DNA from: Naasia sp. SYSU D00057
GTDB lineage: Bacteria; Actinomycetota; Actinomycetes; Actinomycetales; Microbacteriaceae
NCBI RefSeq assembly: GCF_017916505.1
Contig: NZ_JAFMSZ010000002.1
Location: forward strand, 124,001-188,000
Direction of reading: 5' to 3'
DNA length: 64,000 nt
Shown here: one piece after another, positions 17,551-36,338 of the stretch
How positions within the stretch are numbered: the first letter of the stretch is position 1
Layout: each line of letters starts with the position of its first letter
Translations under genes and position numbers: made by a program
The notes under the pieces: generated by a model
Told to the model about the DNA's origin: nothing
Seen by the model: only the letters and a program-made list of their open reading frames with translations
The model's database searches: none

Positions 17551-18395
17551 GCCGGCACCAGCTCCTGCCGCGCCCGGCCGAGGCCGTCGATCTCCAGCTC
17601 CACCACATCCCCGCTCCGCAGGTACGGGTTGCCCGGCAGGCCGAGCGCGACGCCCGCGGGCGTCCCCGTGTTGATGACGTCGCCGGGGTGCAGCACCATG
17701 AACTGGCTGAGGTACCAGACGACGTGACGCACGCCGAAGATCATGTTGGCGGTGGAGCCGTCCTGGCGGAGCTCGCCGTTCACCCACAGCCGCAGGCCGA
17801 GGTCCTGCGGGTCCCCCACCTCGTCGGCGGGCTTCAGCACCGGTCCGAGCGGGTTGAAGGTCTCGCAGCTCTTGCCCTTGTCCCACTGGCCGCCGCGCTC
17901 GAGCTGGAACTCCCGCTCGGAGACGTCGTTCGACATCGCGTATCCGGCGATGACGTCGTCCGCGTCCTCGGGCGAGCCGAGGTAGCGGGCCTCGGCGCCG
18001 ATCACGACCGCGAGCTCCACCTCCCAGTCCGTCTTCTCGGAGTTGCGCGGCACGCGCACCTCGTCGAAGGGGCCGACCATCGTCGACGGGTCCTTCATGA
18101 AGACCACCGGCTCTGCGGGAACGGCGGCGCCGGTCTCCTCCGCGTGATCGGAGTAGTTGAGGCCGATGCACACGATCTTGCCCGGCCGCGCGATCGGGGC
18201 TCCCACTCGGAGGCCGGCGTCGTCGAGCACGGGGAGCCCGCCCTCGGCCAGTGCTCGGCGCGCGGCGGCGAGGCCGCCCGACGCGAGGAACGCCCCGTCG
18301 ATGTCGCTCGTGAGCGACCTCAGGTCGTAGTTGACCCCGTCCTGCTGGAGGACGGGGATCTCCGATCCGGCGGGGCCGAGCCTGGCGAATGTCAC
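17547..18395 (-). CDS. Fumarylacetoacetate hydrolase family, probable 2,4-diketo-3-deoxy-L-fuconate hydrolase
   Basis: 282 aa. C-terminal FAH domain starts at PGKIVCIGLNYSDHAEE (71-87), followed by FMKDPSTMVGPFDEV. Metal ligands are expected at E125/E127 (DWEVELAVVIG) and D157 (SNDVSE). In the L-fucose route this enzyme splits the diketo acid into pyruvate and L-lactate. GTG start overlapping the upstream oxidoreductase by 4 nt. Alternative: another acylpyruvase of the same family. Confidence 0.85.
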   Translation of the reverse strand: MTFARLGPAGSEIPVLQQDGVNYDLRSLTSDIDGAFLASGGLAAARRALAEGGLPVLDDAGLRVGAPIARPGKIVCIGLNYSDHAEETGAAVPAEPVVFMKDPSTMVGPFDEVRVPRNSEKTDWEVELAVVIGAEARYLGSPEDADDVIAGYAMSNDVSEREFQLERGGQWDKGKSCETFNPLGPVLKPADEVGDPQDLGLRLWVNGELRQDGSTANMIFGVRHVVWYLSQFMVLHPGDVINTGTPAGVALGLPGNPYLRSGDVVELEIDGLGRARQELVPA

Positions 18396-19504: not shown

Positions 19505-20433
19505 CCCTTCACCGCCCCGACCGTCTGACCCCGGATCAGGAATCTCTGAGCGGTGAGGAACACGACCAGCAGCGGAAGCATCGAGATGAACGTCGCGAGG
19601 GCGAGCTGCGGCATGTAGAGCTTCACGTCGAGGCCGGCGGCGACGGTCGCGTTGAACAGCGGGCTCGCGCCGATGAGCTCCTGGATGCCGATCGACACCG
19701 TCTTGTTCTGCTGACTCGAGGTCAGCAGCGCGAGCGGCAGGAAGAAGTTCGTCCAGTTGGCCACGAAGGAGAAGAAGGCGACCAGGGCCGTGACCTGCTT
19801 CGAGATGGGCAGACCCACCTGGAGGAAGATCGCGACCTCGCCGAGACCGTCGATCCGGGCCGCCTCGACCAGCTCCGGCGGCATCGTCGTCATGAAGTGG
19901 ACGTAGCTGAGGTACACGCCGAACGGGAAGAAGCCCATGATGATCGCGACGGGCCACAGCTGCCCGATCGCCCCGATCGCGTTGACCTCGAGGAACAGCG
20001 GGATGACGAGCACCGTGTTCGGCATGACCATCGCGAGCAGGGTCGCGAACAGCCACGCCTTCCGGAGGCGGAACCGCAGCCGGGCCAGCGCGTAGCCGGC
20101 GGGCAGCGCCGCGACGAGGCCGAGGACGCCTCCCACGACCGAGACGATCAGCGAGTTCAGAATCCAGCGCGGGAAGAGCCCGCCCCCGCCCGGGCCGAAG
20201 CCGACGATCTGGCTCCAGCTGTAGACGGCGTTCTCCCACGACATCCCGCCCAGGCCGAGGAAGCCGTCGGAGCCGGCGGCCACGTTCTCCTGGTTGCGGA
20301 ACGCCATCGCGATGAAGCCGATGATGGGGATGACGAAGAAGGCGGCGACCAGCAGCATGACCGACACCCGGGCGATCCGACCGGCGCTCCATCGCCTCGA
20401 TCCGACGACCCGATGCATCTCGACGGCGCTCAT
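19501..20433 (-). CDS. Carbohydrate ABC transporter permease (MalG type)
   Basis: 310 aa. First helix at residues about 21-45; a glycine-rich periplasmic stretch (FGPGGGGLFPRW) precedes helix 2. EAA loop EAARIDGLGEVAIFLQVGLPI. CUT1 permease partner of 20430 and of the lipoprotein at 21473. ATG start overlapping the upstream permease stop by 4 nt. No ATPase gene in the operon. Confidence 0.92.
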   Translation of the reverse strand: MSAVEMHRVVGSRRWSAGRIARVSVMLLVAAFFVIPIIGFIAMAFRNQENVAAGSDGFLGLGGMSWENAVYSWSQIVGFGPGGGGLFPRWILNSLIVSVVGGVLGLVAALPAGYALARLRFRLRKAWLFATLLAMVMPNTVLVIPLFLEVNAIGAIGQLWPVAIIMGFFPFGVYLSYVHFMTTMPPELVEAARIDGLGEVAIFLQVGLPISKQVTALVAFFSFVANWTNFFLPLALLTSSQQNKTVSIGIQELIGASPLFNATVAAGLDVKLYMPQLALATFISMLPLLVVFLTAQRFLIRGQTVGAVKG

Positions 20434-21392
20434 CGCCGCTCCTCCTTCTCTCCGAAGAGGCCGCTGCGGAACACGATGACGATGCCGATGGCCAGGGTGA
20501 TCACGAGCAGGATGATCGACATCGCGGCGGCCGCCGGGAAGTTGCGGTTCGTGAAGGCGAAGGCGTAGCCGAGCTGCGTCGGCGCCCATTCCGCATCCAC
20601 CGAGCCGGCGGAGATCTGCCGCAGCAGGTAGGGCTCGAGGAAGAGCTGGAATCCGTAGGCCAGGTTCATGAGGGCCGCGTAGCCGATCCACGGGCGGATG
20701 AGCGGCAGCTTGACGCGCCAGGCCATGTGCCAGGCGTTCGCGCCGTCGAGGGCCGCGGCCTCGAAGATCTCGTCCGAGATGCCGTTGAGCCCGCCGTTGA
20801 CGATGACGATCCAGGTGCCGACGCCCTGGAAGAAGAGCATGGCGGTGAGGATGCTCGGCAGGTTCTCGGTGGTCACCACCTCCTTGAGGTTGTCGAGTCC
20901 GGCGCCCTGCCAGAGGAAGGCGATGGGCGACTGCGACGGGTTCAGGAGGTAGACCCACAGCACGAAGTTGGCGATGCCGGCCAGGGCCCCGGGCACGTAG
21001 TAGATGAAGCGCATGGCGCCGCCGAAGCGCCCCGGGCTGGCGTGCACCAGCAGCGCGAGGCCGACGATGCCGATGATCATCAGCGGCAGCCAGACGATCA
21101 TGACCGTGAAGATGTTGATGAAGGTGTCGACGAATCGGTAGTCGCTGATCACCGTCACGAACGAGTCCAGGCCGCCGAACCCGGACTGCGGGTTCACGAG
21201 GGTCGGCGCCTTCTGCAGGGAGATCCAGAAGGCGTAGCCGATCGGGATCGCCGCGGCGACGAGGAACAGCAGGATGTAGGGGCTCAACAGGATGAGAGCG
21301 CCGCGGGCTTCCACCCGGTGGGGGGCCCTGCGCCGCGCTGCCCGCGGTGGCGGCGCGGTGCGCTTCTCTTCCTTCACCAATGTCGTCGTCAT
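20430..21392 (-). CDS. Carbohydrate ABC transporter permease (MalF type)
   Basis: 320 aa. About 33 basic N-terminal residues, then six predicted helices. EAA loop EAAALDGANAWHMAWRVKLPL. Separated from the binding-protein gene by an 80-nt gap with a strong hairpin; otherwise all genes downstream in this operon overlap. Confidence 0.92.
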   Translation of the reverse strand: MTTTLVKEEKRTAPPPRAARRRAPHRVEARGALILLSPYILLFLVAAAIPIGYAFWISLQKAPTLVNPQSGFGGLDSFVTVISDYRFVDTFINIFTVMIVWLPLMIIGIVGLALLVHASPGRFGGAMRFIYYVPGALAGIANFVLWVYLLNPSQSPIAFLWQGAGLDNLKEVVTTENLPSILTAMLFFQGVGTWIVIVNGGLNGISDEIFEAAALDGANAWHMAWRVKLPLIRPWIGYAALMNLAYGFQLFLEPYLLRQISAGSVDAEWAPTQLGYAFAFTNRNFPAAAAMSIILLVITLAIGIVIVFRSGLFGEKEERR

Positions 21393-21428
21393 GCCTTCAT
21401 CCTCGAATCGCACTCTGGCCGGGGGAGG

Positions 21429-21466
21429 TCGCGCTGCGGGGCGCCTGTCGGCACCCCGCAGCGCGA
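21429..21466 (-). promoter_or_regulatory. Strong stem-loop between binding-protein and permease genes
   Basis: 17-bp stem (TCGCGCTGCGGGGTGCC with GGCGCCCCGCAGCGCGA on the minus strand, one G-T pair) and a 4-nt loop, beginning 7 nt after the stop of the lipoprotein gene. No T-tract follows. Likely a 3' stabiliser or partial terminator that lowers permease expression relative to the binding protein. Confidence 0.6.
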
Positions 21467-21472
21467 TGAGGG

Positions 21473-22810
21473 TCATTCGGTGACGGTGTACCCGACCGAC
21501 TTCGCCTGGTTGACGAGCTCCTCGCCGAAGGCCGTGATGGCCTCCTCGACGGAGGAACCGCCGATCAGCGCGGGGCTGACGGTCTCCGTCCACACCGAGC
21601 CCGTGTCGTACAGCATGTACGAGTAGGGGCTCACCGCGGACGCGGCCGCCTTGAACGCCTCCTGCGTGGTGGGGATGTCCGCGAAGTAAGCCTCAGCGGC
21701 CATGTTGTCGAGCCACGCGTCCTGCACCGGGCCGTAGCCGGGCAGACCGGTGCTCAGCTCGACCTGCCACGCGGGGTCCGTCGCGACGAAGGTCGCGAAG
21801 GTCAGCGCGTTCTCGAGCTGCTTGCCCTTGATGTGGGACGAGACGCCCCACAGGCCGCCGCCCTCGTTGCCCGTCGTCGGCTCCGACTCGCCCTCCCAGG
21901 CGAGCGGGGCCACCGCGGTCATCTGACCGGCCGGGATCTTCCAGGTGTCGCGGAACAGGTAGTTGCCCCACCACACGGCCCCGGGGCTCATGACGAGGTT
22001 CACGCCCGTGCCGGCCGCGTCGCCGTCGAAGATGCCCTGGGTCGACAGCGCCCCGGCGTCGTACATCTGGGTCAGCAGCTCGGTGGCGCGCACGCACGCC
22101 GGGTCGCTGAGGTCGATGCGGGCCTCGGACTCCGACACGCGCTCGTTGGTCGGGCAGCCGGAGCCCTGCAGGTACCGGTTGACGGCGTAGGCGTCGCCGA
22201 GGAACCCGCTGATCTTGCCGGGGTGCTCCTGCGCGATCTGCACGGCGAGCTCGCCGTACTCCTCCCACGTCGTCGGCAGCTGGTAGCCGTTCTCGTCGAA
22301 GAACGCCTTGTTGTACCAGAACACGTCGGGCGCGGCGTCGTTGCGGAGGCACCGGATCCTGCCGTCGATGTCGCAGAAGGACAGGACCGCCGGGTCGTAT
22401 CCCTCGATGACCTCGGGCAGCAGGTCGGTCAGGTCGGCGGCGTAGTTGCTCGTCGAGTTCGTGGCCCAGGCGATGTCGTCGTTGGACGGGAAGAAGATCG
22501 CGTCCGGCCAGCCGGAGCCGGCGGAGTCGAAGTTCGCGAACGCCTGCTTGACGGTCTTGCCGCCGACGGTGCCGTCGATCTGCACGACGTCGATCTCGAT
22601 CTCCGGGTGCGCCTCCTGGAAGGCCTCGGCCGCGGGGACGCGGGGCGGGTCGACCCAGACGGTGATCTTGCCGCCGGAGTCGGTCTGCTCTCCCCCGCCC
22701 GTGCTGCCGCCGCCGCCTTCGCCGCCGCCGCCGCCGGAACAGCCGGACAGGACGAGGGCCGCGCCGGCGACGAGCGCCGAGGTCGCGGTGATGTACCTCT
22801 TGGTCTTCAT
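21473..22810 (-). CDS. Carbohydrate ABC transporter solute-binding lipoprotein
   Basis: 445 aa, family 1 solute-binding protein. Lipobox LSGC with the lipidated Cys at residue 24, then a Gly/Ser-rich tether (GGGGGEGGGGSTGGG). RBS AAGGAGT before the ATG. First gene of a seven-gene operon: lipoprotein, two permeases, Gfo/Idh oxidoreductase, FAH hydrolase, SDR, mutarotase. The operon suggests uptake of L-fucose, a fucoside or a related sugar acid. Two pairs of cysteines (SFCDIDGRIRC, GCPTNER and PAC) may form disulfides. Confidence 0.92.
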   Translation of the reverse strand: MKTKRYITATSALVAGAALVLSGCSGGGGGEGGGGSTGGGEQTDSGGKITVWVDPPRVPAAEAFQEAHPEIEIDVVQIDGTVGGKTVKQAFANFDSAGSGWPDAIFFPSNDDIAWATNSTSNYAADLTDLLPEVIEGYDPAVLSFCDIDGRIRCLRNDAAPDVFWYNKAFFDENGYQLPTTWEEYGELAVQIAQEHPGKISGFLGDAYAVNRYLQGSGCPTNERVSESEARIDLSDPACVRATELLTQMYDAGALSTQGIFDGDAAGTGVNLVMSPGAVWWGNYLFRDTWKIPAGQMTAVAPLAWEGESEPTTGNEGGGLWGVSSHIKGKQLENALTFATFVATDPAWQVELSTGLPGYGPVQDAWLDNMAAEAYFADIPTTQEAFKAAASAVSPYSYMLYDTGSVWTETVSPALIGGSSVEEAITAFGEELVNQAKSVGYTVTE

Positions 22811-23048: not shown

Positions 23049-23924
23049 TTATTGCGCCGCGAGGCTGATGCGGGACGGGTCGATCGAGTAGAAGTCCGCG
23101 GCCGTCCTGCCGAGCACCTGCTCGCGATCCGACGCTCCGAGGGAGTCGAACAGCGGCGCGAGCCCCCGCCAGACGCGGGTGTACCCGCCGGCCAGCACGG
23201 AGATGGGCCAGTCGCCCCCGTACATGAGACGAGCCGGGCCGAACAGCTCGACCGCCCGGTCGAAGTACGGACGCACGGACTCCGTGGTCCACGACCCCAT
23301 GTCCGCCGTGGCGGAGTACAGGCCGCTCACCTTCGCGTGGACCAGGGGGTTCTCCGCAGCGGCGGCGATGAGGCTCCACCACGGCTCCCGCGAGTCCAGG
23401 CCGATCGGCGGCTTCGAGAGGTGGTCGATGACCATCTTCAGCCGTGGATGGCGCTCGGAGAGGATCGGGACGAGCTCGAGATGCCGCGGCAGCACCGAGA
23501 CGACGTCGAAAGTGAGCCCGGCCTGCTCGAGCAGCGCCAGCCCTTCGCCGACCTCGGGCCGCAGCAGGAAGTCGGGATCGGGCTGGTTGTGGATGAGCGT
23601 GCGCACGCCGACGAGCAGGCTGTTCCCCCGCCAGCCCGCGATCGTCTCCGCCAGCTCCGCCGGACGGTCGATGGGCGCGTAGCCGACGATCGCCGCGACC
23701 TCCGGGTGCGCGGCCGCGGACTCCAGCATGATCGCGGTGTCGTCGGCGTTGTCCGCGGACTGCACCTGCACGGTGTACTGCACGCCGGCCGAGGCAAGCT
23801 CGGGCTGAAGCTCCTCGAAGCCGATCGCGCGGTTGATCGGAGCGAGGTCGGGGCCGAGCCAGTCGTACTCCGCCCGCTCCGGATCCCACACGTGCTGGTG
23901 TGCGTCGATCACGGGAAACGCCAC
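23049..23924 (-). CDS. Amidohydrolase family (COG3618), probable L-fucono-1,5-lactonase
   Basis: 291 aa TIM-barrel metal hydrolase. Opens with FPVIDAHQHVWDP: H9 and H11 are the family HxH metal ligands, and DPERAEYDWLG follows as in L-fuconolactonases. VIDHLSKPP and LMYGGDWPISV carry further active-site residues (His and the C-terminal Asp). It would open the lactone made by the L-fucose dehydrogenase to L-fuconate. GTG start 28 nt after the RraA stop; last gene of the dehydratase-RraA-lactonase operon. L-rhamnonolactonase or L-galactonolactonase activity is possible. Confidence 0.85.
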   Translation of the reverse strand: MAFPVIDAHQHVWDPERAEYDWLGPDLAPINRAIGFEELQPELASAGVQYTVQVQSADNADDTAIMLESAAAHPEVAAIVGYAPIDRPAELAETIAGWRGNSLLVGVRTLIHNQPDPDFLLRPEVGEGLALLEQAGLTFDVVSVLPRHLELVPILSERHPRLKMVIDHLSKPPIGLDSREPWWSLIAAAAENPLVHAKVSGLYSATADMGSWTTESVRPYFDRAVELFGPARLMYGGDWPISVLAGGYTRVWRGLAPLFDSLGASDREQVLGRTAADFYSIDPSRISLAAQ

Positions 23925-23952
23925 TGTTGCTCCTTCGGTCGATTGTCGGGGT

Positions 23953-24621
23953 TCAGAGGACGCGGTGCCGGTCCCAGACGGCTCGCAGGGACTCCCCCGC
24001 GAGCAGCTCGGCGAGCACGGTGGACTCGCGCGCGGCGCGCTCGCGAGCAAGGCCGAGGACTTCCTCCTCGCGCTCGCGCGGGACCACCACGACTCCGTCG
24101 TCGTCCGCCATCACGACGTCGCCCGGGTCGATGCGGACGCCGCCCACGGTGACCGCGACATCGGCGTCGATCACCCGCATGCGCGCCCGGTAGTCGATCG
24201 GTCGCCGCGATCGGGAGAAGGCGGGGAAGCCCAGCGCGGCGATCCGGTCGGTGTCGCGGAGGTTGCCGTCGGTGATCACGCCGGATGCCCGTGCGCCGAG
24301 CGCGGCGGCGCTGAAGAGCTCACCCCAGAAGCCGGAGTCGTTGCTCTCGTCGGTGGCGATGACGACGAGCTGCCCAGCGGCGATCGAGTCGATGAAGTCG
24401 ATGGCGTCCCGGTACGGGTCGTCGGGCTGATCCTCGAGCGACGGAGCGAACCGCACCGTGCGCGCCCGGCCGATCGCGCGCGAGCCGGGGACCACGGGAG
24501 CGAGGCGGTGCTCGAGCACCTGGTTGCGGAGGCCTGCGGCGTCGCAGGAGTCGCTGAGGATCGCCGTGCTGAGGCGCTCGTCGCCCGGCTCCGGCGTGAA
24601 TCCCGGGTCAGCGGATGACAT
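23953..24621 (-). CDS. RraA-like protein (HMG/CHA-type aldolase or oxaloacetate decarboxylase family)
   Basis: 222 aa with the RraA fold. Conserved GRARTVRFAP near residue 51, then GELFSAAALGARASGVITDGNLRDTD (residues about 100-125), which holds the G-x-x-x-R-D metal/substrate motif of 4-hydroxy-4-methyl-2-oxoglutarate aldolases. DPGDVVMADDDGVVVVPRE is the usual C-terminal segment. Its start overlaps the dehydratase stop by 14 nt. In this setting it may cleave or decarboxylate a 2-keto acid from sugar-acid breakdown; the substrate is open. Confidence 0.82.
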   Translation of the reverse strand: MSSADPGFTPEPGDERLSTAILSDSCDAAGLRNQVLEHRLAPVVPGSRAIGRARTVRFAPSLEDQPDDPYRDAIDFIDSIAAGQLVVIATDESNDSGFWGELFSAAALGARASGVITDGNLRDTDRIAALGFPAFSRSRRPIDYRARMRVIDADVAVTVGGVRIDPGDVVMADDDGVVVVPREREEEVLGLARERAARESTVLAELLAGESLRAVWDRHRVL

Positions 24622-25768
24622 GGCCGCCTCCCGGGTGGAAGGGGAAGTCCCGCTCGATCTCGGGGGTGAGTCGCACTCCGAGGCCGGGGGCGGTGGGGGC
24701 GACCACTCGACCGTCCCGGAACCCGACGGGCTCGACGAGAAGCGCGTCGCGGAGCGGATTCGAGAGCGTGCAGTACTCGAAGAGCTCGACGTGCGGGTCG
24801 GCCAGGACGGTGTGGAGGTTGGCGGAGAAGGTCACCCCGCTCCCCCACACGTGCGGCACGACGGCGACGCCGGCCTCGCGGGCGATGCCGGACACGCGTG
24901 CGAAGGCGGCCGGGCCGCCGACGAAGGTGACGTCCGGCTGGGCGATGTCGACGCCTCCCGCCGCGATCAGCTCGGCGAACTCCCGCACGGTGCCGTTCGA
25001 TTCCACACCCGAGATCGGCACGTCCACCTCGGAGCGGACCCGGGCGTACCCGGCGACGTCGTCCGCCTGGCAGGGCTCCTCGTACCAGCGGGCACCGAGT
25101 TCTGCCGCCTTCCGGCCGACGCGGATCGCTTCGTCCACGGGCCACGGGTCGGACGCACAGGCCTGCACTGCGTCGATCACGAAGCGGACGCCATCGGGCA
25201 GCCTGCCCGCGACGTGAACGAGGAGCCGGACGGTGGTGTCCGGGTCCGTCATCGCTCGGAACTTGACGGTGCCGAAGCCGGCGGCGATCTGCGCATCGGC
25301 CCAGGCCGATACCTCGTCGAACGTCGTGCCGAGCCCGCCGCTCGCGTAGGCCTCGATGGTCGGCCGAGCGAGCCCGCCGAGGAGCTCGTAGGCGGGGACG
25401 CCCTCCCGCTTCGCGACGGCGTCGAGCGCCGCGGTCTCGATGGCCCCCGCGACGCCGTTCAGGATGCCACCGCGCGACCAGAAGGCCGTGTAGGCGCGGA
25501 GATGGTCCGCGACCTCGAGGGGATGACCGAACCCACGGCCCTCGAGATATGGCCGGAAGGAGTCCACGATGCCCGGCACGGCGAGCGCCGCCATGATGCC
25601 CGCGCCGGCCTCTCCGATTCCTCTCGTCCCGTCGGAGAGCGTGACCTCGACGAGAGCCGCATCCCACGACCGGATGGTCCCGCCCACCCAGGTGAGCTCC
25701 TCGCCCTTCGGGTAGCGGTGGGAGAGGAGCACGGCTCGCAGCCCCGTCACCGTGAGGGCGGTGTTCAT
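24608..25768 (-). CDS. Mandelate racemase/muconate lactonizing enzyme family sugar-acid dehydratase
   Basis: 386 aa, enolase superfamily. Barrel residues read from the sequence: K169-x-R171 (TVKFRAM) where MR-type enzymes have KxK, metal ligands D199 (FVIDA), E230/E231 (WYEEPC) and E256 (GVESNG), and a His at 306 in VVPHVWGSG. I take the ATG at 25768, preceded by AAGGGG with 8-nt spacing; an ATG at 25792 lacks a ribosome site. First gene of the operon with RraA and the lactonase, divergent from gntR. Likely dehydrates an aldonate or aldarate other than L-fuconate. Confidence 0.83.
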   Translation of the reverse strand: MNTALTVTGLRAVLLSHRYPKGEELTWVGGTIRSWDAALVEVTLSDGTRGIGEAGAGIMAALAVPGIVDSFRPYLEGRGFGHPLEVADHLRAYTAFWSRGGILNGVAGAIETAALDAVAKREGVPAYELLGGLARPTIEAYASGGLGTTFDEVSAWADAQIAAGFGTVKFRAMTDPDTTVRLLVHVAGRLPDGVRFVIDAVQACASDPWPVDEAIRVGRKAAELGARWYEEPCQADDVAGYARVRSEVDVPISGVESNGTVREFAELIAAGGVDIAQPDVTFVGGPAAFARVSGIAREAGVAVVPHVWGSGVTFSANLHTVLADPHVELFEYCTLSNPLRDALLVEPVGFRDGRVVAPTAPGLGVRLTPEIERDFPFHPGGGHVIR

Positions 25769-25800
25769 CGGCGGATCCCCTTCGTCGGACATCTAGGCGA

Positions 25801-26659: not shown

Positions 26660-27961
26660 TCAGCGGGATGCCCAGTACGAGCCCTCGGGGAACGCGTACT
26701 CCTCGACCGACGCGTCGAACATCTGGGCGCTGTAGCCCGGCTGGGTCGGCAGCACGTACGCGCCGTTCTCGACGATGCAGGGGTCGACGAAGTGCTCGTG
26801 CAGGTGGTCGACGAACTCGGTGACCCGGTTCTCCAGCGACCCGGACACGCAGACGTAGTCGAAGATCGACAGGTGCTGCACCAGCTCGCACAGGCCGACG
26901 CCGCCCGCGTGCGGGCACACCGGCACGCGGAACTTCTTCGCCATGAGGTAGACGGCGATGATCTCGTTGACGCTCGCGAGGCGGGCGGAGTCGAGCTGGC
27001 AGTAGTCGATGGCCTCCGCCTGGAACATCTGCTTGAACAGCACCCGGTTCATGCCATGCTCGCCGGTGGCGACGCCGATCGGGGCCACGGCCTTGCGGAT
27101 CGCCGCGTGGCCGAGGACGTCGTCCGGACTGGTCGGCTCCTCGATCCACATCGGCTTGAACTCGGCGAGCCTCCCGACCCAGTCGATGGCCTGCGGGACG
27201 TCCCACACCTGGTTCGCATCGATCATCAGATTCGCGTCCCAGCCGATGACCTCGCGGGCGATCCGCAGCCGGCGGATGTCCTCGTCGACGTCGGCGCCGA
27301 CCTTGAGCTTCACGTGCCGGTAGCCCTCGTCCACGGCCTCCTGCAGGAGGCGGCGCAGCTTGTCGTCGCTGTACCCGAGCCAGCCGGCGCTCGTGGTGTA
27401 GCAGGGGTAGCCGCCGCGCGCCTCGAGGTCGGCGATCCGGTCGGCGCGGGTCGGCGCGAGCTCGGCGAGGAGCTCCACGGCCTCGTCGCGGGTCAGCGCG
27501 TCCGAGAGGTACCGCAGGTCGGCGACGTCGACGAGCTGTTCCGGCGTCATGTCGGCGAGCAGCCGCCACAGAGGCTTGCCCGCGACGCGCGCCGCGAGAT
27601 CCCACATCGCGTTCATGACCGCGGCCATGGCGAGGTGCACCACGCCCTTCTCCGGACCGAGCCAGCGCAGCTGCGAGTCGGAGGCGAGCTCGCGGTAGAG
27701 GCCGCCGAGGTCAGCGACCGAGTCCTCGACCGAGCGCCCGACCAGCGGGATGCCGCGCTGCCGCGCCGCCTCGACGCAGAGGTCGTTGCCGCGCCCGATG
27801 GTGAAGGTGAAGCCGTAGCCCTTCACCGCGGGGTCGTCGGTGTGCACGACGACGTAGGCGGCGGAGTAGTCGCCGTCCTTGTTCATGGCGTCGGAGCCGT
27901 CCATGCTGAGCGACGTCGGGAACCGGACGTCGTGCGCGGTGACTGCGGTGATGGTGGTCAT
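26660..27961 (-). CDS. L-fuconate dehydratase
   Basis: 433 aa, enolase superfamily, MR subgroup. The catalytic set occurs at the numbering I recall for Xanthomonas FucD: K218 and K220 (HVKLKVG), metal ligands D248 (MIDANQ), E274 (WIEEPT), E301 (ATGEHG), H351 (CPHAGGVG) and E382 (RVTEF). Converts L-fuconate to 2-keto-3-deoxy-L-fuconate. Full family length. ATG in an ATGA overlap with the L-fucose dehydrogenase-type AKR. High confidence that it is a fuconate-type dehydratase; activity on L-galactonate or D-arabinonate is also known in the family. Confidence 0.93.
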
Positions 27962-28935
27962 GACGGGATCTCCTGGATCAGGCCGGCGGATACGAGCTCG
28001 GTCCACACGGCGTCGGGGACGGATGTCTGGTAGCGGTCGAGGTTCTGCTGCACCTGGCTGCGACCGCGGGCGCCGACGACGACGCTCGTGACCGCCGGGT
28101 GCCGGAGGACGTAGGCGATGGCCGCGGCGGGCAGCGTCACGCCGTGGGCCTCGCACACGTCCGCGATGCGATTCGCCCGGTCGATGAGCTCGGCCGGCGC
28201 GGGTCCGTAGTCGAAGGTGGCGTCGGCCGCCGGCCGATCGCGGCCGAGCAGGCCGGAGTTGTACACGCCGGCCGCGACGACGCCGACCCCGCGCTCGAGG
28301 GCGAGGGGCAGCAGGTCGCGCAGCGCTTCGTCGTCGACGAGTGTGAACCGGCCCGCGCACATGACGAGGTCCACATCGGCGCGCCGGATGAGCTCGGCGA
28401 GCGGCGCGGCGTGATTCATGCCGGCGCCGACGGCGGAGACCACTCCCTGCTCCCGCAGCTCGATGAGGGCGCCGACGCCCTCGGTCGAGGCCTGCTCGAA
28501 GAAGTCGTCGGGATCGTGCAGGTAGAGGATGTCGAAGCGGTCGAGGCCGGTGCGCCGAAGGGAGTCCTCGACGGAGCGCAGGATGCCGTCGCGGCTGAAG
28601 TCCCACTGCCGCCGGGGATCGGCCGGCACGTCGAAGCCCTGCCCGTCCCGCTCGGACGCGGTCTCCGGGCTCGGCACGAGGAGGCGGCCCACCTTGGTCG
28701 AGAGAACGAACTCGTTCCGCGGACGCCTCGCGAGCTCCTCCCCGATGCGGCGCTCCGAGAGGCCCACGCCGTAGTGCGGGGCGGTGTCGAAGTACCGGAC
28801 GCCGCCCGCCCAGGCGGTGTCGATCGACTCCACCGCCTCCTGCGGAGTCGTCTCCCGGTAGAGGTTGCCGAGCTGTGCGGCTCCGTAGCCCAGCTCGGTC
28901 AACTCCAGGCCGCGCTTCGTCGCGCGAGTGCGCAT
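27958..28935 (-). CDS. Aldo/keto reductase, probable L-fucose (D-threo-aldose) 1-dehydrogenase
   Basis: 325 aa. AKR tetrad D50, Y55 (YFDTAPHYG), K81 (STKVG) and H140 (LYLHDP). [14 protein letters not shown] and [15 protein letters not shown] match the galactose/L-fucose dehydrogenase branch (D-threo-aldose 1-dehydrogenases), which oxidises L-fucose to L-fucono-lactone. RBS GAGGAGGTG before the ATG. First gene of a two-gene operon with L-fuconate dehydratase; an operator-like site lies about 40 nt upstream. Confidence 0.87.
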
Positions 28936-28968
28936 CGTGCACCTCCTCAACTGCTCCCTCACCCTAGT

Positions 28969-28986
28969 CGAAACATTAGATGTATC
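28969..28986 (-). promoter_or_regulatory. Putative GntR operator, AKR-fuconate dehydratase promoter
   Basis: Minus strand GATACATCTAATGTTTCG. Its first 14 bases match GATTCATCTGATCT of the SBP promoter in 11 of 14 positions. It also holds the short palindrome ACAT-TAG-ATGT on the plus strand, so a different regulator, such as the LacI protein at 29044, is an alternative binder. Confidence 0.4.
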
Positions 28987-29043: not shown

Positions 29044-30057
29044 CTATCGGCGCGGCGGCGCCGTCGACTCGCGCAGGATGAGCTCCGGCCGAGGATCGTG
29101 GACGACGTGGTCGGCGACCGCGCCCGAGGTGATCCGGTCGAAGATGGCCGACATCGCCTGCCGCCCGAGCTCGTACAGCGGCATCTTGATCGTCGTCAGC
29201 GGGGGCCACGCGTTCTCCGCCGTCCAGGCGTCGTGCATCGCGACGATGGAGAGGTCCTCGGGGACCCGCAGGCCGAGCCGCCGCGCCTCGAGCAGCGCAC
29301 CGTGAGCCGCGTTGATGTTGGCGACGACGACGGCGGTCGGCGGGTCGGGAAGGGAGGCGATGCGGTTCAGCGCGGCCCTGCCCTGACGCGGCTCGTAGCC
29401 GAGCTCGGTGACGAAGTCGGACGGCACCGCGAGGCCGGCGTCCGCCATCGCACCGGCGAAGCCGAGCCCTCGCCGGCGCGCCGAGTCGGACGTCGGCAGG
29501 CCGTTGACGAATCCGATGCGCCGGTGTCCCAGGTCGAGGAGGTGCTGGGTCGCGAGACGCATCCCCAGCTCGTCCTCGAGGGTGACCGAGCCGGCGTGCT
29601 CGGGATGGATGGAGTTGATGAAGACGACGGGGAGGCCGCCCTCGAGGAGGGTCGTCAGGTCCTCCTGGCGCATGTTGTCGCCCACCTGCACCAGGACGCC
29701 GTCCACGCGGCCCTCGCCGATGAGGCGCGGGATCGACTCCTGGCCCTCGGGCATGCCCTCGGCGCGGGCGATGAGCGCCATGTATCCCCGCTTGAGCGCC
29801 TCCTCCTCCACGCCGCGCATGAGCTCCGTGAAGATCGCGTTGGTGAGATCGGGCACGACGAGTCCCACGACGTTGGTCCGCGCGAACTTGAGGGCCCGCG
29901 CCGCGAAGTTGGGGCGGTAGTCGAGCTCGCGCGCGGCCTCGTGGATCCGGCGCCGGGTCTCGACGCTGACGCGCGCGCTCGGGGCGTCGCTGAGGACGCG
30001 CGACACGGCGGAGACCGACACCCCCGCACGCGCCGCGACGTCGCTCAGTGTGGCCAT
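29044..30057 (-). CDS. LacI family transcriptional regulator
   Basis: 337 aa. Helix-turn-helix ATLSDVAARAGVSVSAVSRVL at the N-terminus, hinge RPNFAARALKFARTNVVGL, effector domain with SIVAMHDAWTAENAWPPLTTI. It starts 4 nt after the MaoC stop and is the last gene of the CoA-transferase operon. It probably responds to an intermediate of that operon. Confidence 0.9.
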   Translation of the reverse strand: MATLSDVAARAGVSVSAVSRVLSDAPSARVSVETRRRIHEAARELDYRPNFAARALKFARTNVVGLVVPDLTNAIFTELMRGVEEEALKRGYMALIARAEGMPEGQESIPRLIGEGRVDGVLVQVGDNMRQEDLTTLLEGGLPVVFINSIHPEHAGSVTLEDELGMRLATQHLLDLGHRRIGFVNGLPTSDSARRRGLGFAGAMADAGLAVPSDFVTELGYEPRQGRAALNRIASLPDPPTAVVVANINAAHGALLEARRLGLRVPEDLSIVAMHDAWTAENAWPPLTTIKMPLYELGRQAMSAIFDRITSGAVADHVVHDPRPELILRESTAPPRR

Positions 30058-30061
30058 CGGC

Positions 30062-30526
30062 TCAGTGTAGGGACGGCGTCGCTCGCCGGTTCACCAGGTA
30101 GAGGTGGGTGAGCACGAGCACGGTCTCGCCGCGCTGATTGGTCACCGACACCACCTCGTGGACGTACCCGGACTCGTCGGGACGCTTCGTGTGCGGCGCC
30201 TTCTCGGTGATCTCCGCGACCACGGTGATGGTGTCGCCGATGAACACGGGACGGATGAACCGGATGCGGTCGTAGCCGTAGCTCATCGCCTGCGGGTTGA
30301 TGTCCCCCGCGGTCATGCCGACGGCCACCGACAGGATGAGCGTGCCGTGCGCGATCCGCTGCCCGGCGGGCTGCGTGCTCATCCACTCGGCGTCCATGTG
30401 GTGCGGGAAGAAGTCGCCGGTCTGCCCGGCGTGCAGCACGATGTCCGCCTCGGTGATGGTGCGCCCCACCGTCTCCCGGCGCTCCCCGATCTCGTAGTCC
30501 TCGTACCAGCGGTCGATCGTCCGCAT
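30062..30526 (-). CDS. MaoC family (R)-hydratase/dehydratase
   Basis: 154 aa hot-dog fold. The hydratase 2 motif appears as [22 protein letters not shown] (residues about 24-45), with the catalytic Asp/His pair near D38 and H42-H43, then [15 protein letters not shown]. Hydrates or dehydrates acyl-CoA thioesters. The start overlaps the stop of the solute-binding-like gene by 1 nt. With the family III CoA-transferase upstream it implies a CoA-activated hydroxy acid, for example a mesaconyl- or citramalyl-type step; the compound is unknown. Confidence 0.85.
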
Positions 30527-31656
30527 CAGTGCACCAGCCATTCCGCGACGCCCTCGTCGAGCCGGACGCGCAGCTCGTCGTCCGGGATCCTCCCGAGCAG
30601 GGCGTCGGTCACGAGCCCGGAGAGGGAGTTCTGCAGCTCGATGTAGTGCACGAAGCGCGGGCGCAGGTACGCGCCCTCGAGCGTCGCGCGGGTGCCGCGG
30701 AAGAAGTCGAGGCTGTCCGCGTTCGTGCGGTCGCTCTCCCAGGCGACCGCGTTGCCGGGCTGCCCGCCGCCGTCGTAGTAGACGCCCTCCTGCACCTCGG
30801 CGGAGTCGAGCCAGAACGCGTGCGCGATCGCCTGCTCGGGATGCCGGGTCCGGGCCGACACCGCGATGCCGGCCCCGCCGAGCAGCGAGCCGCTGACGCC
30901 GTTCCGCGAGGCGGGGATGTCGGTGTACCGGATCCGGTGCCGCCGGAACCCGGCACGCGAGTAGTTCGTGTAGCCGAAGGCGAGGGGGACGTAGGCGTAC
31001 CGATCCCCGCTGCTCAGGGCATCGGCGGCCTGGATCGGGTTCCAGCCGGCGTTCTCCTCCGGGACGAGCCGCGCCAGCTTGCGGAGCAGCTCCATCGCCT
31101 CCCCCAGGGCGTCGGGACTGAGGAATACGCCGGGCGTGCGCATCGGCTCCTCGCCGTTGCCGCTCGCGACGGTCACGAGGCTCGAGAAGGCGTCGACGGG
31201 CTTGTAGGGCCACAGCACCCGGCCCTCCGCCGCGAGCTCGAGCACGCCGGCCCAATCCCGCGGCGGCTCGGGCAGCAGGTCGGGGCGATAGGCGGCCACC
31301 TGCGCCGCGGCATCCGTCGCGAGCCCCCACTGCCGATCCTGGTGGCGGTAGCTCTCATGCGATCGGCCGACCGACTGGCCGGCGAGCACGGCGAGCTCGT
31401 CGTCGTGACCGGCTCCGTCGAGGGGTGCCAACAGTCCGTGCTCGGCGGCGAGCGGGATGTGCGGGTGGTCGATCACGAGCAGGTCGTAGTCCTCGACGAG
31501 CCGCTCGAGCGCCTGGTCGGCGAAGGACTGGAGCGAGCGGTACTCCCAGCGGACCTCGACGTCGGGCTCGACCGCGCGGTACGCCTCTGCCGCCGCGACG
31601 ACGCTGCCGTAGCCGCGGGCGTGCTCCCAGGTGATGCCCTTGAGGACGACGGTCAC
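30526..31656 (-). CDS. Solute-binding-protein-like protein without signal peptide
   Basis: 376 aa, resembles family 1 extracellular solute-binding proteins: [58 protein letters not shown] and [17 protein letters not shown]. The protein begins at what would be the mature N-terminus; there is no signal peptide, lipobox or membrane segment. The GTG start is fixed by a 4-nt overlap with the CoA-transferase stop, so no leader can be hidden upstream. No permease gene is in this operon. It therefore looks cytoplasmic: perhaps a metabolite sensor, a carrier or an enzyme on this fold. Confidence 0.8.
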
Positions 31657-32822
31657 GAGACCGCCTCGCTCACGGGGAACTCGGTGCGGACGCGCTCGTC
31701 GTCCTCGCCGAGCATCGGCGCGGCCTTCGAGCTGGTGAGGATCTGTCCGTCGATCCGGATCGGGCTCCGCGTGGTGGAGAGCGTCGTCCCGTTCCGCTCC
31801 ACCTGCTGCGTCATCCGGATGGCGGCGAAGCCGTCCGACTCGAGGAGCTCGTCGAGCGTCAGCACCGGCGCGCACCAGACGTCGGCCGCGTCCAGGATGT
31901 CGAGCCACTGCTGGGTGGGGCCGGTCGCGAACTTCGCGGCCAGGATGGCCTCGATCTCCTCCTGCAGGTCCCAGGCCTGACGCGGGTCGGTCATCGCCTC
32001 GAGCTCGGGCAGTCCGAGCAGCGAGCCCAGCACGGGGATGGGGTTCATCGCGAGGGCGAGGTAGCCGTCCTGCGTCGGATAGGTGCCGTAGGGGGCGGCG
32101 AGGAACGCGTGCGCCGAGTGCTCGCCACCCCGCTTCACGGTGATCGTTTCGTCGTTGAGCCGCGTGCTCAGCAGCTCGAACTGGAGGTCGAGCATCGCCT
32201 CCAGCAGGCTCGTCTCGGCGTGCCCGCCGACGCCCGTCCGGAAGCGGCGGACGAGGAGCGCCGTCACCCCCTGGGCGATGTGGCAGCTGACGAGGTGGTC
32301 GGCGATGGAGAGGCCGACCGGGACCGGGCCGTCGTCGTGCGATCCGCTGAGCCACGGCAGCCCGGAGATGCTCTGGGCGAGCAGATCCTGGCCCGGGCGG
32401 TCCTTCCACGGGCCCGCGTCGCCGTAGCCGGTCGCGCTCGCGTACACGATGCCCGGATTGATCGCCCGGACCGACTCGTAGTCGAGGCCGATGCGCTCCA
32501 TGACGCCGGGACGGAAGTTCTGGATCACGACGTCGGCCTTGGCGACGAGCTGCTTCACGTACGCCAGGTCGTCCGGCGACTTCAGGTTCGCGGTGATCGA
32601 CTCCTTGTTGCGGTTCATCGCGTGAAAGGAGATGGTGTCGCCGTCGGCGGTCCGACCCGCGAAGGCGAGCGTCCGCCCGATGTCGCCGACGCCCGGTCGC
32701 TCGACCTTGATCACGCGCGCACCGAGATCGGCGAGCCGCATGGCCGCCACCGGGCCGGCGAGGAACTGGCTGAAGTCGAGCACGAGGATGCCCTCGAGTG
32801 GTCGTATGTTCTCTGGCGCCAT
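31653..32822 (-). CDS. Family III CoA-transferase (CaiB/BaiF)
   Basis: 389 aa. Opens with PLEGILVLDFSQFLAGPVAAMRLADLGARVIKVE, the family N-terminus. The catalytic Asp is expected at D146 in GQDLLAQSISG. NRNKESITANLKSPD and QNFRPGVMERIGLDY are further signatures. Moves CoA between carboxylic acids. First gene of an operon with the solute-binding-like protein, MaoC hydratase and LacI; divergent from the zinc dehydrogenase operon. The acid activated may be a sugar breakdown product. Confidence 0.88.
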   Translation of the reverse strand: MAPENIRPLEGILVLDFSQFLAGPVAAMRLADLGARVIKVERPGVGDIGRTLAFAGRTADGDTISFHAMNRNKESITANLKSPDDLAYVKQLVAKADVVIQNFRPGVMERIGLDYESVRAINPGIVYASATGYGDAGPWKDRPGQDLLAQSISGLPWLSGSHDDGPVPVGLSIADHLVSCHIAQGVTALLVRRFRTGVGGHAETSLLEAMLDLQFELLSTRLNDETITVKRGGEHSAHAFLAAPYGTYPTQDGYLALAMNPIPVLGSLLGLPELEAMTDPRQAWDLQEEIEAILAAKFATGPTQQWLDILDAADVWCAPVLTLDELLESDGFAAIRMTQQVERNGTTLSTTRSPIRIDGQILTSSKAAPMLGEDDERVRTEFPVSEAVS

Positions 32823-32993: not shown

Positions 32994-34016
32994 GTGCGAA
33001 CTGCGAGCTATGTGGGCGACCACACCATCGAGGTGTCGGAGGCGGAGGCCACGCCGCCGCGCCCGGGCGAGGTGCAGGTCGCCGTGGCCTACACGGGCCT
33101 CTGCGGCACCGACCTGCACATCCTGCACGGGAGCATGGATGCGCGGGTCAGCACGCCGCTCGTGTTCGGCCACGAGATGAGCGGCACCGTCGCCGCGGTC
33201 GGCGACGGGGTCGAGGGCTGGTCGGTCGGCGACGGGGTCACCGTGATGCCGCTCGACTGGGACGGCACCTGCCCCGCGTGCCTTGCCGGCAACTCCCACA
33301 TCTGCCAGAACCTCAACTTCATCGGCATCGACTCCCCCGGCTCGCTGCAGCCGCTCTGGAACGTTCCCCCCGAGACCCTCGTCGCGCTGCCCGCCGGTCT
33401 GCGCCTCGACCATGCCGCGCTCGTCGAGCCGGCGGCGGTCGCCGTCCACGACGTCCGCAGAGCCGAACTCGCCCCCGGTCAGAAGGCGGTCGTGATCGGC
33501 GGCGGCCCGATCGGCGTCCTCATCGCCTCCGTGGCGCGCGAGTTCGGCGGGGACGTCGTCGTCGTCGAGCTCGACCCCAACCGCCGGGCGCAGGTCGAGG
33601 CGCTCGGCTTTCCCACGATCGACCCCCGCGAGGTGGACCAGGTCGAGTGGGTCACGGAGTGGACGGGAGGCGCCGGCGCCGACGTCGTCTTCGAGGTGTC
33701 GGGAGCGGCCGGCGCGGTGCTCGGCGCACCCGACCTCGCGAAGGTCCGCGGAACCATCGTGGTCGTGGCCATCCATCCGGAGCCGCGCCCCATCAACCTC
33801 CAGCGGGTCTTCTGGCGCGAGCTGCGGATCCTCGGCGCCCGCGTCTACCAGCGGCAGGACTTCGAGACCGCTGTCGAGCTGGTCGCCCGGGGTGTCATCC
33901 CGGCCGAGCTCCTCATCACGAAGATCGTGCCGCTCTCCCGCACCCAGGAGGCGTTCGCCGACCTCGAGGCCGGCCGCGCCATGAAGGTCCTCGTCGATGT
34001 GGCGGGCCAGGCGTGA
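32994..34016 (+). CDS. Zinc-dependent medium-chain alcohol dehydrogenase
   Basis: 340 aa MDR enzyme. Catalytic zinc region TGLCGTDLHILHG and VFGHEMSG; NAD(P) fold VVIGGGPIGVLIA with an acidic VVELDPNRR after beta-2 (NAD+ preferred). The structural-zinc lobe reads DGTCPACLAGNSHIC, so three cysteines and an Asp where most relatives have four cysteines. GTG start behind GAGGAG. It resembles sugar-acid and polyol dehydrogenases such as L-galactonate 5-dehydrogenase. First gene of a four-gene operon with SDR, aldolase and kinase. Confidence 0.87.
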   Translation: MRTASYVGDHTIEVSEAEATPPRPGEVQVAVAYTGLCGTDLHILHGSMDARVSTPLVFGHEMSGTVAAVGDGVEGWSVGDGVTVMPLDWDGTCPACLAGNSHICQNLNFIGIDSPGSLQPLWNVPPETLVALPAGLRLDHAALVEPAAVAVHDVRRAELAPGQKAVVIGGGPIGVLIASVAREFGGDVVVVELDPNRRAQVEALGFPTIDPREVDQVEWVTEWTGGAGADVVFEVSGAAGAVLGAPDLAKVRGTIVVVAIHPEPRPINLQRVFWRELRILGARVYQRQDFETAVELVARGVIPAELLITKIVPLSRTQEAFADLEAGRAMKVLVDVAGQA

Positions 34017-34771
34017 GCGGCATGTTCGACCTCTCCGGACGGACCGCCGTCGTCACGGGCGCGAAGCGGGGCATCGGGTTCGCGATGGCCACGGCGCTCG
34101 CCGAGGCGGGCGCGGACATCATCGGCGTCAGCGCGACGCTGGAGCCGTCCGGGAGCACCATCGAGAAGGCGGTGATCGCCACGGGCCGGTCGTTCCGCGG
34201 CATCGCCTGCGACTTCGCCGACCCGGCCGCGGTGACGGACCTCGTCGCCCAGCTGTCGGGGCAGGACGTCGACATCCTCGTCAACAACGCGGGAACCATC
34301 GAGCGGGCACCTGCCGCTGACCACCCGATCGAGCTGTGGGACCGCGTGCTCCAGGTGAACCTCTCGAGCCAGTTCATCCTCGCGCAGGGGATCGGCCGCT
34401 CCATGCTCGACCGCGGCCACGGGAAGATCATCTTCACGGCGTCCCTGCTCAGCTTCCAGGGCGGCATCAACGTGCCCGGCTACACGGCGGCGAAGTCGGG
34501 GATCGCCGGCCTGACGAAGGCGCTCGCCAACGAGTGGGCTTCCCGCGGCGTCAACGTGAACGCGATCGCCCCCGGCTACATCGCGACCGACAACACTCAG
34601 GCGCTGCGCGACGACCCGGACCGCTCGCGGGCGATCCTCGACCGGATACCGGCCGGGCGCTGGGGAACCTCTGACGATCTCGCCGGCGCGACGGTCTTCC
34701 TCGCATCATCGGCGTCCGACTACGTCTCGGGCATCGTCCTTCCCGTCGACGGCGGCTGGCTCGGCCGATGA
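34013..34771 (+). CDS. Short-chain dehydrogenase (KduD-like)
   Basis: 252 aa classical SDR: VVTGAKRGIGFAMATAL cofactor loop, NNAG, catalytic Ser in FTASLLSFQGG and YTAAKSG (Tyr, Lys). Closest in feel to 2-dehydro-3-deoxy-D-gluconate 5-dehydrogenases (RIPAGRWGTSDDLAGATVFLAS). GTG at 34013 in a GTGA overlap is chosen because the operon uses such overlaps; ATG at 34022 is an alternative. Probably interconverts keto and hydroxy forms of a hexonate before the aldolase step. Confidence 0.82.
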   Translation: MSGMFDLSGRTAVVTGAKRGIGFAMATALAEAGADIIGVSATLEPSGSTIEKAVIATGRSFRGIACDFADPAAVTDLVAQLSGQDVDILVNNAGTIERAPAADHPIELWDRVLQVNLSSQFILAQGIGRSMLDRGHGKIIFTASLLSFQGGINVPGYTAAKSGIAGLTKALANEWASRGVNVNAIAPGYIATDNTQALRDDPDRSRAILDRIPAGRWGTSDDLAGATVFLASSASDYVSGIVLPVDGGWLGR

Positions 34772-35397
34772 CGCCCGCTCGCGCACTGCTCGCGGAGAAC
34801 CCGATCGTTCCGGTCGTCGTGCTCGACGACGCGGCGAACGCCCCGGAACTCGTCGCCGCGCTGGCGGCAGGCGGCATCCGCTGCGCCGAGTTCACGCTGC
34901 GCACTCCCGCCGGCCTCGGCGCCATCGCCGCAGTCGCCGGCACGGCGGACTTCGCGGTCGGCGCCGGGACCGTGCTCTCCCTGGACGACCTCGAGCGCTC
35001 GGTCGACGCCGGTGCCACGTTCCTCGTCAGCCCGGGCTTCGACGACGAGCTCGTCGAGCGGGCGATGGAGCGCGGCGTCGCCGTCCTCCCGGGGGTCGCG
35101 ACCGGCACGGAGGTGCAGCGGGCCGCGAAGGCGGGCCTCGACACCGTCAAGTTCTTCCCGGCGGACCGCCTGGGCGGCCTGCCCACGATCGCGGCGCTCG
35201 CCGCACCGTTCGTCGGGATGGGGTTCGTGCCGAGCGGCGGGGTCACCGGCGCCAACGCGCCGGAGTACCTCGCCCATCCCGCGGTGCCCGCCGTGAGCGG
35301 AAGCTGGATGGCGCCCCGCTCGCTCATCGGGTCGGGCGACTTCGAGGCGATCGAGCGCCTCAGCAGCGAGGCCGTCGTCGCGATCGGACGGGCATGA
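34768..35397 (+). CDS. KDPG/KHG-type 2-keto-3-deoxy-6-phosphonate aldolase
   Basis: 209 aa, class I aldolase. Schiff-base lysine K128 in TVKFFPAD; E41 in AEFTLRTP; phosphate loop at VPSGGV. Splits a 6-phospho 2-keto-3-deoxy acid into pyruvate and a triose phosphate. ATGA overlaps with both neighbours, and the kinase that would make its substrate follows directly. Confidence 0.92.
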   Translation: MTPARALLAENPIVPVVVLDDAANAPELVAALAAGGIRCAEFTLRTPAGLGAIAAVAGTADFAVGAGTVLSLDDLERSVDAGATFLVSPGFDDELVERAMERGVAVLPGVATGTEVQRAAKAGLDTVKFFPADRLGGLPTIAALAAPFVGMGFVPSGGVTGANAPEYLAHPAVPAVSGSWMAPRSLIGSGDFEAIERLSSEAVVAIGRA

Positions 35398-36338
35398 GCG
35401 GCGGGCTGGTCACCCTCGGGGAGACGATGGCGCTGTTCCGCCCGACCGGGATCGGCTCGCTCGCGCACGAGAGCGAATTCCGGCTCGCGATCGGCGGCGC
35501 CGAGAGCAATGTCGCGATCGGCGTCGCGCGCCTCGGCGGCACGGCGGCCTGGATCGGCCGCGTGGGCGCCGACAGCCTGGGCGAGCGCGTGTCCCGCGAG
35601 CTGCGCGCCGAGCGCGTCGACGCGCGTGTCGTCGTGGATGGAGGCGCGCGCACCGGCCTGATGATCAAGGAGCGGCGCACCCCTGACCACACCGGGGTCC
35701 TCTACTACCGAGCGGGCAGCGCCGGCAGCCGGATCTCCCCCGACGACCTGGATGGCGCGCTCATCCGCGCCGCCGGCGTGCTGCACATCACCGGCATCAC
35801 GCCGGCGCTGTCCACGAGCGCGGCCGGTGCCGTGTTCGCCGCGGTCGACCTCGCCGACGAGGCGGGCGTCCCGGTGTCGTTCGACGTGAACCACCGCGCG
35901 ACGCTCTGGTCCGCCGCCGAGGCCGTCCCGGTGTACCAGGAACTGGCGCGGCGGGCCGACCTCGTGTTCGCGGGCGAGGACGAGGCGGCGATGCTGGTCG
36001 GCAACGGGCCGCCGGCCGACCTGGCTGCTCGGATCGCCGCTCTCGGGCCGGGTCAGGTCCTCATCAAGCGGGGTGCCGAGGGATGCTTCGCCCTCATCGA
36101 CGGCGTCGCGCACGAGGTGGCCGCGCGGACGGTCTCCGTCGTCGACACGGTCGGTGCAGGAGACGCCTTCGTCGCGGGGTATCTCGCGGAGCTGCTGGCC
36201 GGCGAGCCGGCCGCAGCGCGACTCGCGACGGCGGTGGCGGCGGGCGCCTTCGCCTGCCTGGGCCCGGGCGACTGGGAGAGCCTCCCCCGCCGAGCCGACC
36301 TCGCGATGCTCGACCGCACGGATCCGGTCACTCGCTAG
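35394..36338 (+). CDS. PfkB family sugar kinase, probable 2-keto-3-deoxygluconate kinase
   Basis: 314 aa ribokinase fold. N-terminal GG motif region (FRLAIGGAESNVAIGVARLGG), C-terminal anion-hole motif DTVGAGDAFVAGY with the catalytic Asp. YYRAGSAGSRISPDDLD matches KDG kinases. With the aldolase it forms the lower half of an Entner-Doudoroff-like route to pyruvate and glyceraldehyde 3-phosphate (or the deoxy equivalent). Last gene of the operon. Confidence 0.9.
   Translation: MSGGLVTLGETMALFRPTGIGSLAHESEFRLAIGGAESNVAIGVARLGGTAAWIGRVGADSLGERVSRELRAERVDARVVVDGGARTGLMIKERRTPDHTGVLYYRAGSAGSRISPDDLDGALIRAAGVLHITGITPALSTSAAGAVFAAVDLADEAGVPVSFDVNHRATLWSAAEAVPVYQELARRADLVFAGEDEAAMLVGNGPPADLAARIAALGPGQVLIKRGAEGCFALIDGVAHEVAARTVSVVDTVGAGDAFVAGYLAELLAGEPAAARLATAVAAGAFACLGPGDWESLPRRADLAMLDRTDPVTR

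Follow-up and report, generated by a model that had tools for sequence, protein, structure and literature searches.

Leaderless solute-binding proteins kept beside class III CoA-transferases in sugar-breakdown gene clusters point to an undescribed intracellular job

Results

A family 1 solute-binding protein (SBP) without an export leader is kept beside a CaiB/BaiF class III CoA-transferase (CaiB) in sugar-breakdown clusters, a placement that points to an undescribed intracellular job. The case that we started from lies in Naasia sp. SYSU D00057, within the 64,000-nucleotide stretch of DNA that we call, as a whole, the window (Table 1). A sequence-only reading of this stretch had drawn attention to a leaderless SBP inside a CaiB/MaoC operon, and we confirm that this observation is real. 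Re-reading of the minus-strand codons reproduced the coordinates and strand of the gene and the 4-bp GTGA overlap between the CaiB stop and the SBP start (minus strand ...GTC TCG TGA / GTG ACC GTC), where the SBP start codon is GTG. At the other end, the base A is common to the SBP stop codon TGA and the MaoC start codon ATG.

Table 1. Coordinates of the genes discussed, in the window unless a locus is named
Feature	Position	Strand	Remark
Leaderless family 1 SBP	30526..31656	-	376 aa; Pfam and predicted fold
CaiB/BaiF class III CoA-transferase	31653..32822	-	389 aa; Asp175 in SIAD motif
MaoC-like hydratase	30062..30526	-	154 aa from ATG; best solved match 4ffu_A
LacI-family regulator	29044..30057	-	
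Aldo/keto reductase, candidate sugar dehydrogenase	27958..28980	-	start not settled
Enolase-superfamily (MR/MLE) sugar-acid dehydratase candidate 1	26660..27973	-	
MR/MLE sugar-acid dehydratase candidate 2	24608..25792	-	
RraA-like protein	23953..24621	-	
Amidohydro_2, lactonase candidate	23049..24050	-	first-start ORF; true start probably inside
Importer SBP with lipoprotein leader	~21473..22810	-	control
ABC sugar permease 1	20430..21593	-	ORF, true start inside
ABC sugar permease 2	19501..20958	-	ORF, true start inside
Gfo/Idh/MocA oxidoreductase	18392..20392	-	ORF, true start inside
FAA_hydrolase family, candidate diketo acid hydrolase	17547..18971	-	ORF
Short-chain dehydrogenase	16798..18747	-	C-terminal part of ORF
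L-rhamnose mutarotase (rhaM)	16478..17608	-	C-terminal part of ORF
Divergent zinc alcohol dehydrogenase	32994..34016	+	
KduD-like short-chain dehydrogenase	34034..34771	+	under NCBIfam cut-off
KDPG/KHG-type aldolase	34768..35397	+	
PfkB-family kinase	35394..36338	+	
Second leaderless SBP family (SBP2)	L102:9437-10672, L107:9993-11237, L127:8998-10230	+	
SBP2	L128:8992-10179, L130:7995-9230, L047:1988-3145	+	

Domain, model, fold, and profile matches all place the protein in the family 1 SBP fold. It matches Pfam SBP_bac_8 (E 1.2e-14) and SBP_bac_1 (E 4.7e-7), both above the curated cut-off, while an NCBIfam search at E 0.01 returned no family and the protein's own genome holds no second match at E 0.001. 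An AlphaFold2 model built from 81 rows is a full-length SBP fold (pLDDT 95.9, pTM 0.93) whose VIA-align Z is 37.5 with MalE3, 37.3 with TMBP, and 37.3 with LpqY, and a profile search finds TMBP at E 7.7e-19. Its neighbors match other Pfam families, CoA_transf_3 for CaiB (6.9e-98) and MaoC for the hydratase (5.2e-22), whose best solved match is presumably an S. meliloti protein.

The same genes lie within about 20 kb (16478-36338) of sugar-acid catabolism genes comprising a candidate deoxyhexose oxidation route and importer genes, with a GntR/FCD regulator on the strand opposite to the cluster. We take the families present to match nonphosphorylated L-fucose/L-rhamnose-type catabolism: the RhaM, AKR, Amidohydro_2, MR/MLE, SDR, and FAA_hydrolase proteins of the L-fucose/L-rhamnose diketo-hydrolase pathway are all represented, although that pathway includes, to our knowledge, no CoA step, CaiB, MaoC, or cytosolic SBP. 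No priming acyl-CoA ligase was seen among the window genes scanned. The importer SBP of the cluster, about 8 kb from the leaderless one, begins with a typical lipoprotein leader (MKTKRYITATSALVAGAALVLSGC), and no ATPase gene was identified among the window importer genes (this SBP and two permeases). The proposal that the operon has no partner permease therefore holds for CaiB-SBP-MaoC-LacI but not for the longer same-strand cluster, which continues to the importer SBP and its two permeases. Next to the leaderless SBP we find CaiB and MaoC rather than a permease and an ATPase; the permeases follow the leadered SBP.

The window SBP carries neither a signal peptide nor a lipobox. Its N terminus is already part of strand 1 in the predicted fold and therefore leaves no room for a leader, in agreement with the sequence-only reading that the protein begins at the mature part. 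Among the best 80 homologous loci, the first conserved motif (TW) lies 4–16 codons after the chosen start in every case, a range that reflects starts picked close to the motif. Because this choice is biased toward short starts, we also applied a test that is independent of it. No ATG, GTG, or TTG occurs 18–50 codons before the motif in 71/80 loci, and in the other nine the highest Kyte–Doolittle mean over 10 residues within any such extension is at most 1.49, compared with 1.81–3.36 by the same measure for five leadered importer SBPs, including the window's own. An in-frame stop leaves at most 20 codons before the motif in 30/80 loci and at most 25 in 36/80. A missed leader is thus rejected on the evidence of the 71 loci with no start codon in reach and the nine with no leader-like stretch, and the check for leaders in homologues that had been proposed found a convincing one in 0/80 sampled loci. 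These reading-frame tests show the SBP to be, by prediction, cytosolic.

The SBP family is large yet sparse. A pattern scan of the genome collection found a relative encoded in 576 of the 595 stretches listed, that is, in at least 576, of which we analyzed the best 80; these are the top-scoring ones and so are biased toward the window type. They cover eight phyla and 37 genera, with 45 loci from Pseudomonadota, 21 from Actinomycetota, seven from Bacteroidota, three from Bacillota, and one each from Planctomycetota, Dormiibacterota, Thermodesulfobacteriota, and Verrucomicrobiota. A homologue is present at E 1e-10 in 16 of 99 relative genomes (own included), and at E 1e-20 in 5/396 genomes drawn from the window's phylum (own included, four candidates scored per genome). 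Among plasmid records, 145/72,556 match at E 1e-8.

CaiB is the constant neighbor of these genes. It is directly adjacent on the same strand in 70/80 best loci (51 upstream, 19 downstream), with a 4-bp overlap in 37 of the 51 cases where it lies upstream and a natural CaiB–SBP fusion in none of those 51. Over all fetched loci, near-duplicate and repeated genomes included, CaiB lies within 200 bp on the same strand for 101/116 SBP genes. As for the remaining loci, one gene separates SBP and CaiB in L048 and L054, and the SBP of L083 is at a contig start. In six others (L052, L057, L077, L094, L097, and L099) the fetched stretch contains no CaiB although the contig continues, and in L080, where the contig also continues, the sole nearby CaiB, a relative at 37%, lies on the other strand at a distance of about 4.6 kb. 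Each of these seven loci, and L083 too, comes from a genome with a CaiB at E 1e-60, the identity being 50–53% in six and 37–39% in L080 and L097. The Dormiibacterota copy (L052) has a single MR/MLE relative nearby.

The two families also occur in the same genomes. Among the 99 relatives, window-type SBP and CaiB are present in the same seven genomes, own included. Of 199 genomes in the family that includes Rhizobium lusitanum (L077), 47 have the SBP, 46 have CaiB, and 45 have both, leaving two with SBP only (G550 and G585, the gene of the latter 408 bases from a contig start), one with CaiB only (G647), and 151 with neither; four genomes (G509, G560, G641, and G647) are left out on the SBP side, their sole SBP match falling in a 38–40% group. 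More distant SBPs, with 30–39% identity in the relatives (group B), pair with a different clade of CaiB: each of the ten group-B carriers in the set of 99 also has a 34–42% CaiB match, which in G009 lies about 1.2 kb away on the opposite strand. Five further genomes (G003, G025, G038, G072, and G090) have 36–42% CaiB matches with no accompanying SBP. SBP and CaiB distances correlate over 99 pairs (r 0.91, 0/999 permutations), a value obtained without a control pair of genes and due in part to shared ancestry. On a FastTree CaiB tree, the SBP-linked label requires eight changes versus 21.6 in shuffles; the tree has long branches, and near-copies make a label of this kind cluster. Linkage and co-occurrence with CaiB together rule out random insertion of a transporter gene.

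The partner CaiB appears intact. The Asp175 column, which we take to hold the catalytic Asp of class III CoA-transferases, is D in 127/127 CaiB rows over 330 aa, which rules out a degenerate CaiB; with this residue and the CoA_transf_3 domain, the partner is a predicted class III CoA-transferase.

The surrounding genes suggest sugar-acid chemistry, with sugar-acid genes near SBP members in at least seven of eight phyla. The search for the trio CaiB-SBP-MaoC in other genomes, which had been proposed as a check, finds that the set recurs widely. A CoA-transferase and an acyl-CoA hydratase share one cluster in the window, and a MaoC or crotonase hydratase occurs in the fetched stretches of 62/80 loci (the stretches are short, which makes absence weak evidence). 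In type A clusters, CaiB and SBP are accompanied by MaoC, Gfo/Idh, RhaM, Amidohydro_2, MR/MLE, and an importer, and in type B clusters by crotonase, aldose epimerase, SDR, and sometimes a FAH-family gene. Sinorhizobium meliloti carries the SBP and CaiB pair; its copy and that of S. medicae have CaiB only and lie apart from type A genes. Bacteroidota clusters show SBP-CaiB-CaiB together with crotonase or a second SBP, and an aldehyde dehydrogenase in three (L073, L075, and L079). Persicobacter, Croceibacterium, and the archaeon Halostagnicola have an alpha-L-fucosidase close to the set. Two loci have other companions. One from Phycisphaerae (L048:4872-10802) reads Gfo-SBP-Amidohydro_2-CaiB-DHDPS aldolase and then a bacterial microcompartment shell gene, and in Pseudovibrio (L080:200-10025) the SBP occurs with LacI, a TRAP-type transporter (by ORF reading), SDR, ADH, and a kinase.

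The presence of another leaderless SBP family suggests that operons of this kind have recruited an SBP twice. This second family (SBP2), of SBP_bac_1 type, follows the second CaiB in Lutibacter, Pontibacter, Persicobacter, and Rufibacter, and it is also found in Croceibacterium, Halostagnicola (the only SBP family seen there), and a Nocardioides MAG, there directly after MaoC. BLASTP finds no significant similarity between SBP2 and the first leaderless family, and the nearest SBP2 relatives in the fetched loci are importer SBPs at about 25%. Alternatively, one old leaderless ancestor may have split later into both families. SBP2 is present in 0/99 of the window's relatives at E 1e-25, an uninformative empty answer for a set without a known positive. 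In Rufibacter (L129:8989-9115), the annotated SBP2 start (9115) omits about 38 conserved residues, and a better fit is given by an in-frame TTG at 8995 that directly follows a stop.

The ligand site appears to retain the closure residues of sugar SBPs and little else. TMBP (1eu8), MalE3 (6dtq), LpqY (7ape), and SmoF (7ofy), all family 1, cluster D, share the full-length fold of the window SBP (Z 36.9–37.5, rmsd 2.6–2.8, 361–368 aligned) at only 17–20% identity. Compared with such sugar SBPs, the window SBP has no leader, lipobox, or adjacent permease and adjoins CaiB instead. The GGW of TMBP, whose Trp presumably stacks on the sugar, is GGT or GGA in the window SBP family. In the printed alignments, invariant D63 aligns with Asp80 and invariant R332, of an RP motif, with Arg404 of Mycobacterium thermoresistible LpqY. 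According to the LpqY study, Arg404 lies at the hinge in direct contact with the substrate trehalose, its Arg404Ala variant does not bind, and Asp80Ala is unstable (PMC7949145). The LpqY contact Asn134 falls on A117 of the window SBP and is not kept, and the alignment does not cover the contacts Trp259 and Glu241. As aligned, the closure pair D63/R332 is kept and the remaining ligand site is apparently altered. Twenty-six polar or aromatic positions, including R14, R40, D63, H64, D115, Y232, Q299, W306, and R332, are conserved in at least 95% of 81 SBP rows. The ligand is likely anionic because R14, R40, and R332 are invariant.

Discussion

We propose that the SBP is a cytosolic ligand-binding Venus-flytrap protein and a dedicated partner of the adjacent class III CoA-transferase, a reading to which we give close to, but below, an even chance. 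The SBP would capture a sugar acid, or the corresponding lactone or acyl product, from the surrounding deoxyhexose-type pathway and either hand it to CaiB or, by closing around it, switch CaiB on. CaiB would then load the acid with CoA, the resulting thioester would be the substrate of a MaoC or crotonase hydratase, and CaiB would afterwards recover the CoA for a new round, in the manner of CaiB/CaiD on carnitine and BaiF/BaiE on bile acids. The type of ligand, physical binding of the SBP to CaiB, and the direction in which one acts on the other are inferences. In favor are the missing leader, the linkage and co-occurrence with CaiB and its intact Asp, the predicted SBP fold with D63/R332, and the sugar-acid context. 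Against it, CaiB is absent nearby in 7/80 loci, two CaiB genes accompany a single SBP of the window's family in some clusters, class III CoA-transferases can act without such a partner, and the window also holds a candidate ordinary dehydratase/diketo-hydrolase route that needs no CoA. The sequence-only reading had suggested a metabolite-binding partner, an allosteric subunit, or a new enzyme. Its interpretation is partly supported: recurrence, the absence of leaders in 80 loci, and co-occurrence with CaiB favor a cytosolic partner in CoA metabolism, and none of the three options is singled out.

The main rival is that the SBP fold has itself become an enzyme (a dehydratase, isomerase, lactonase, or acyl-CoA-acting protein) in a CaiB/MaoC module, which we regard as unlikely though well worth weighing. 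MqnA, MqnD, and cyclohexadienyl dehydratase are enzymes from SBP-like ancestors, and retention of the 26 polar or aromatic positions despite a median pairwise identity of about 40% (99-row set) speaks for this rival; the occurrence of two separate leaderless SBP families in one operon would likewise be compatible with enzyme recruitment. However, D63/R332 fall on the ligand and closure residues of ordinary SBPs, and H12, which might be catalytic, is replaced by N or D in some members. The 50 fold matches listed include no SBP-fold enzyme, which excludes nothing. MqnA/MqnD, which act in the cytosol, and cyclohexadienyl dehydratase resemble the window SBP in putting an SBP-like fold to new use, whereas the latter belongs to a sugar-SBP lineage, is linked to CaiB, and has no known activity.

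Venus-flytrap sensing is common, and LacI, IclR, or GntR type regulators occur in many of the clusters examined (LacI relatives in 19/80 stretches), which would agree with a role in the cytosol as a sugar or sugar-acid sensor or buffer whose target is not CaiB but, for example, a regulator. We consider this improbable, as the constant neighbor is CaiB rather than one regulator type and the overlapped gene is CaiB. The public records, which label the SBP an extracellular or ABC transporter substrate-binding protein, imply an ordinary importer component whose leader was missed or whose export is unusual. That view seems very improbable, given a convincing leader in none of 80 loci under a measure that does pick one out in five importer SBPs, and given that four Bacteroidota loci (L079, L102, L127, and L129) have a RhaT-type importer instead.

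If the family is cytosolic, several hundred genes at least (at least 576 relatives), of a type that public records label extracellular solute-binding proteins, would be misnamed and would have another job. If the SBP partners CaiB, a protein that evolved to bind solutes for transport now forms part of a CoA enzyme, and there is a sugar-acid route that depends on CoA and that, as far as we know, standard pathway maps lack. Extending the partner reading, class III CoA-transferases might have acquired transport SBPs, perhaps on two occasions from different lineages, as cytosolic subunits or delivery partners. Together with MaoC or crotonase, they would form a CoA-cycling deoxyhexose-type sugar-acid route across phyla and, via SBP2, to a haloarchaeon, a reading that we regard as possible but somewhat doubtful.

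The claim that no function has been described for such an arrangement stands in the open-access PMC literature, where we found no description of the SBP family or of the arrangement; one candidate, PMC9007349, concerns a different subject.

The closest functional parallels are the carnitine (CaiB/CaiC/CaiD) and bile-acid (BaiF/BaiB/BaiE) modules, which likewise combine a class III CoA-transferase and a hydratase gene, sometimes with an AMP-binding ligase. Window-type clusters differ from them in their sugar-acid context and SBP partner; we know of no SBP partner in the Cai and Bai modules. An AMP-binding gene occurs in 2/80 stretches and also in L026 and L130. In Ammoniphilus resinae (L098:28-8803), both paralogue groups are present in one locus, in the order CaiB_b, AMP-binding, SBP_b, crotonase, MR/MLE, SBP_a, CaiB_a, MaoC.
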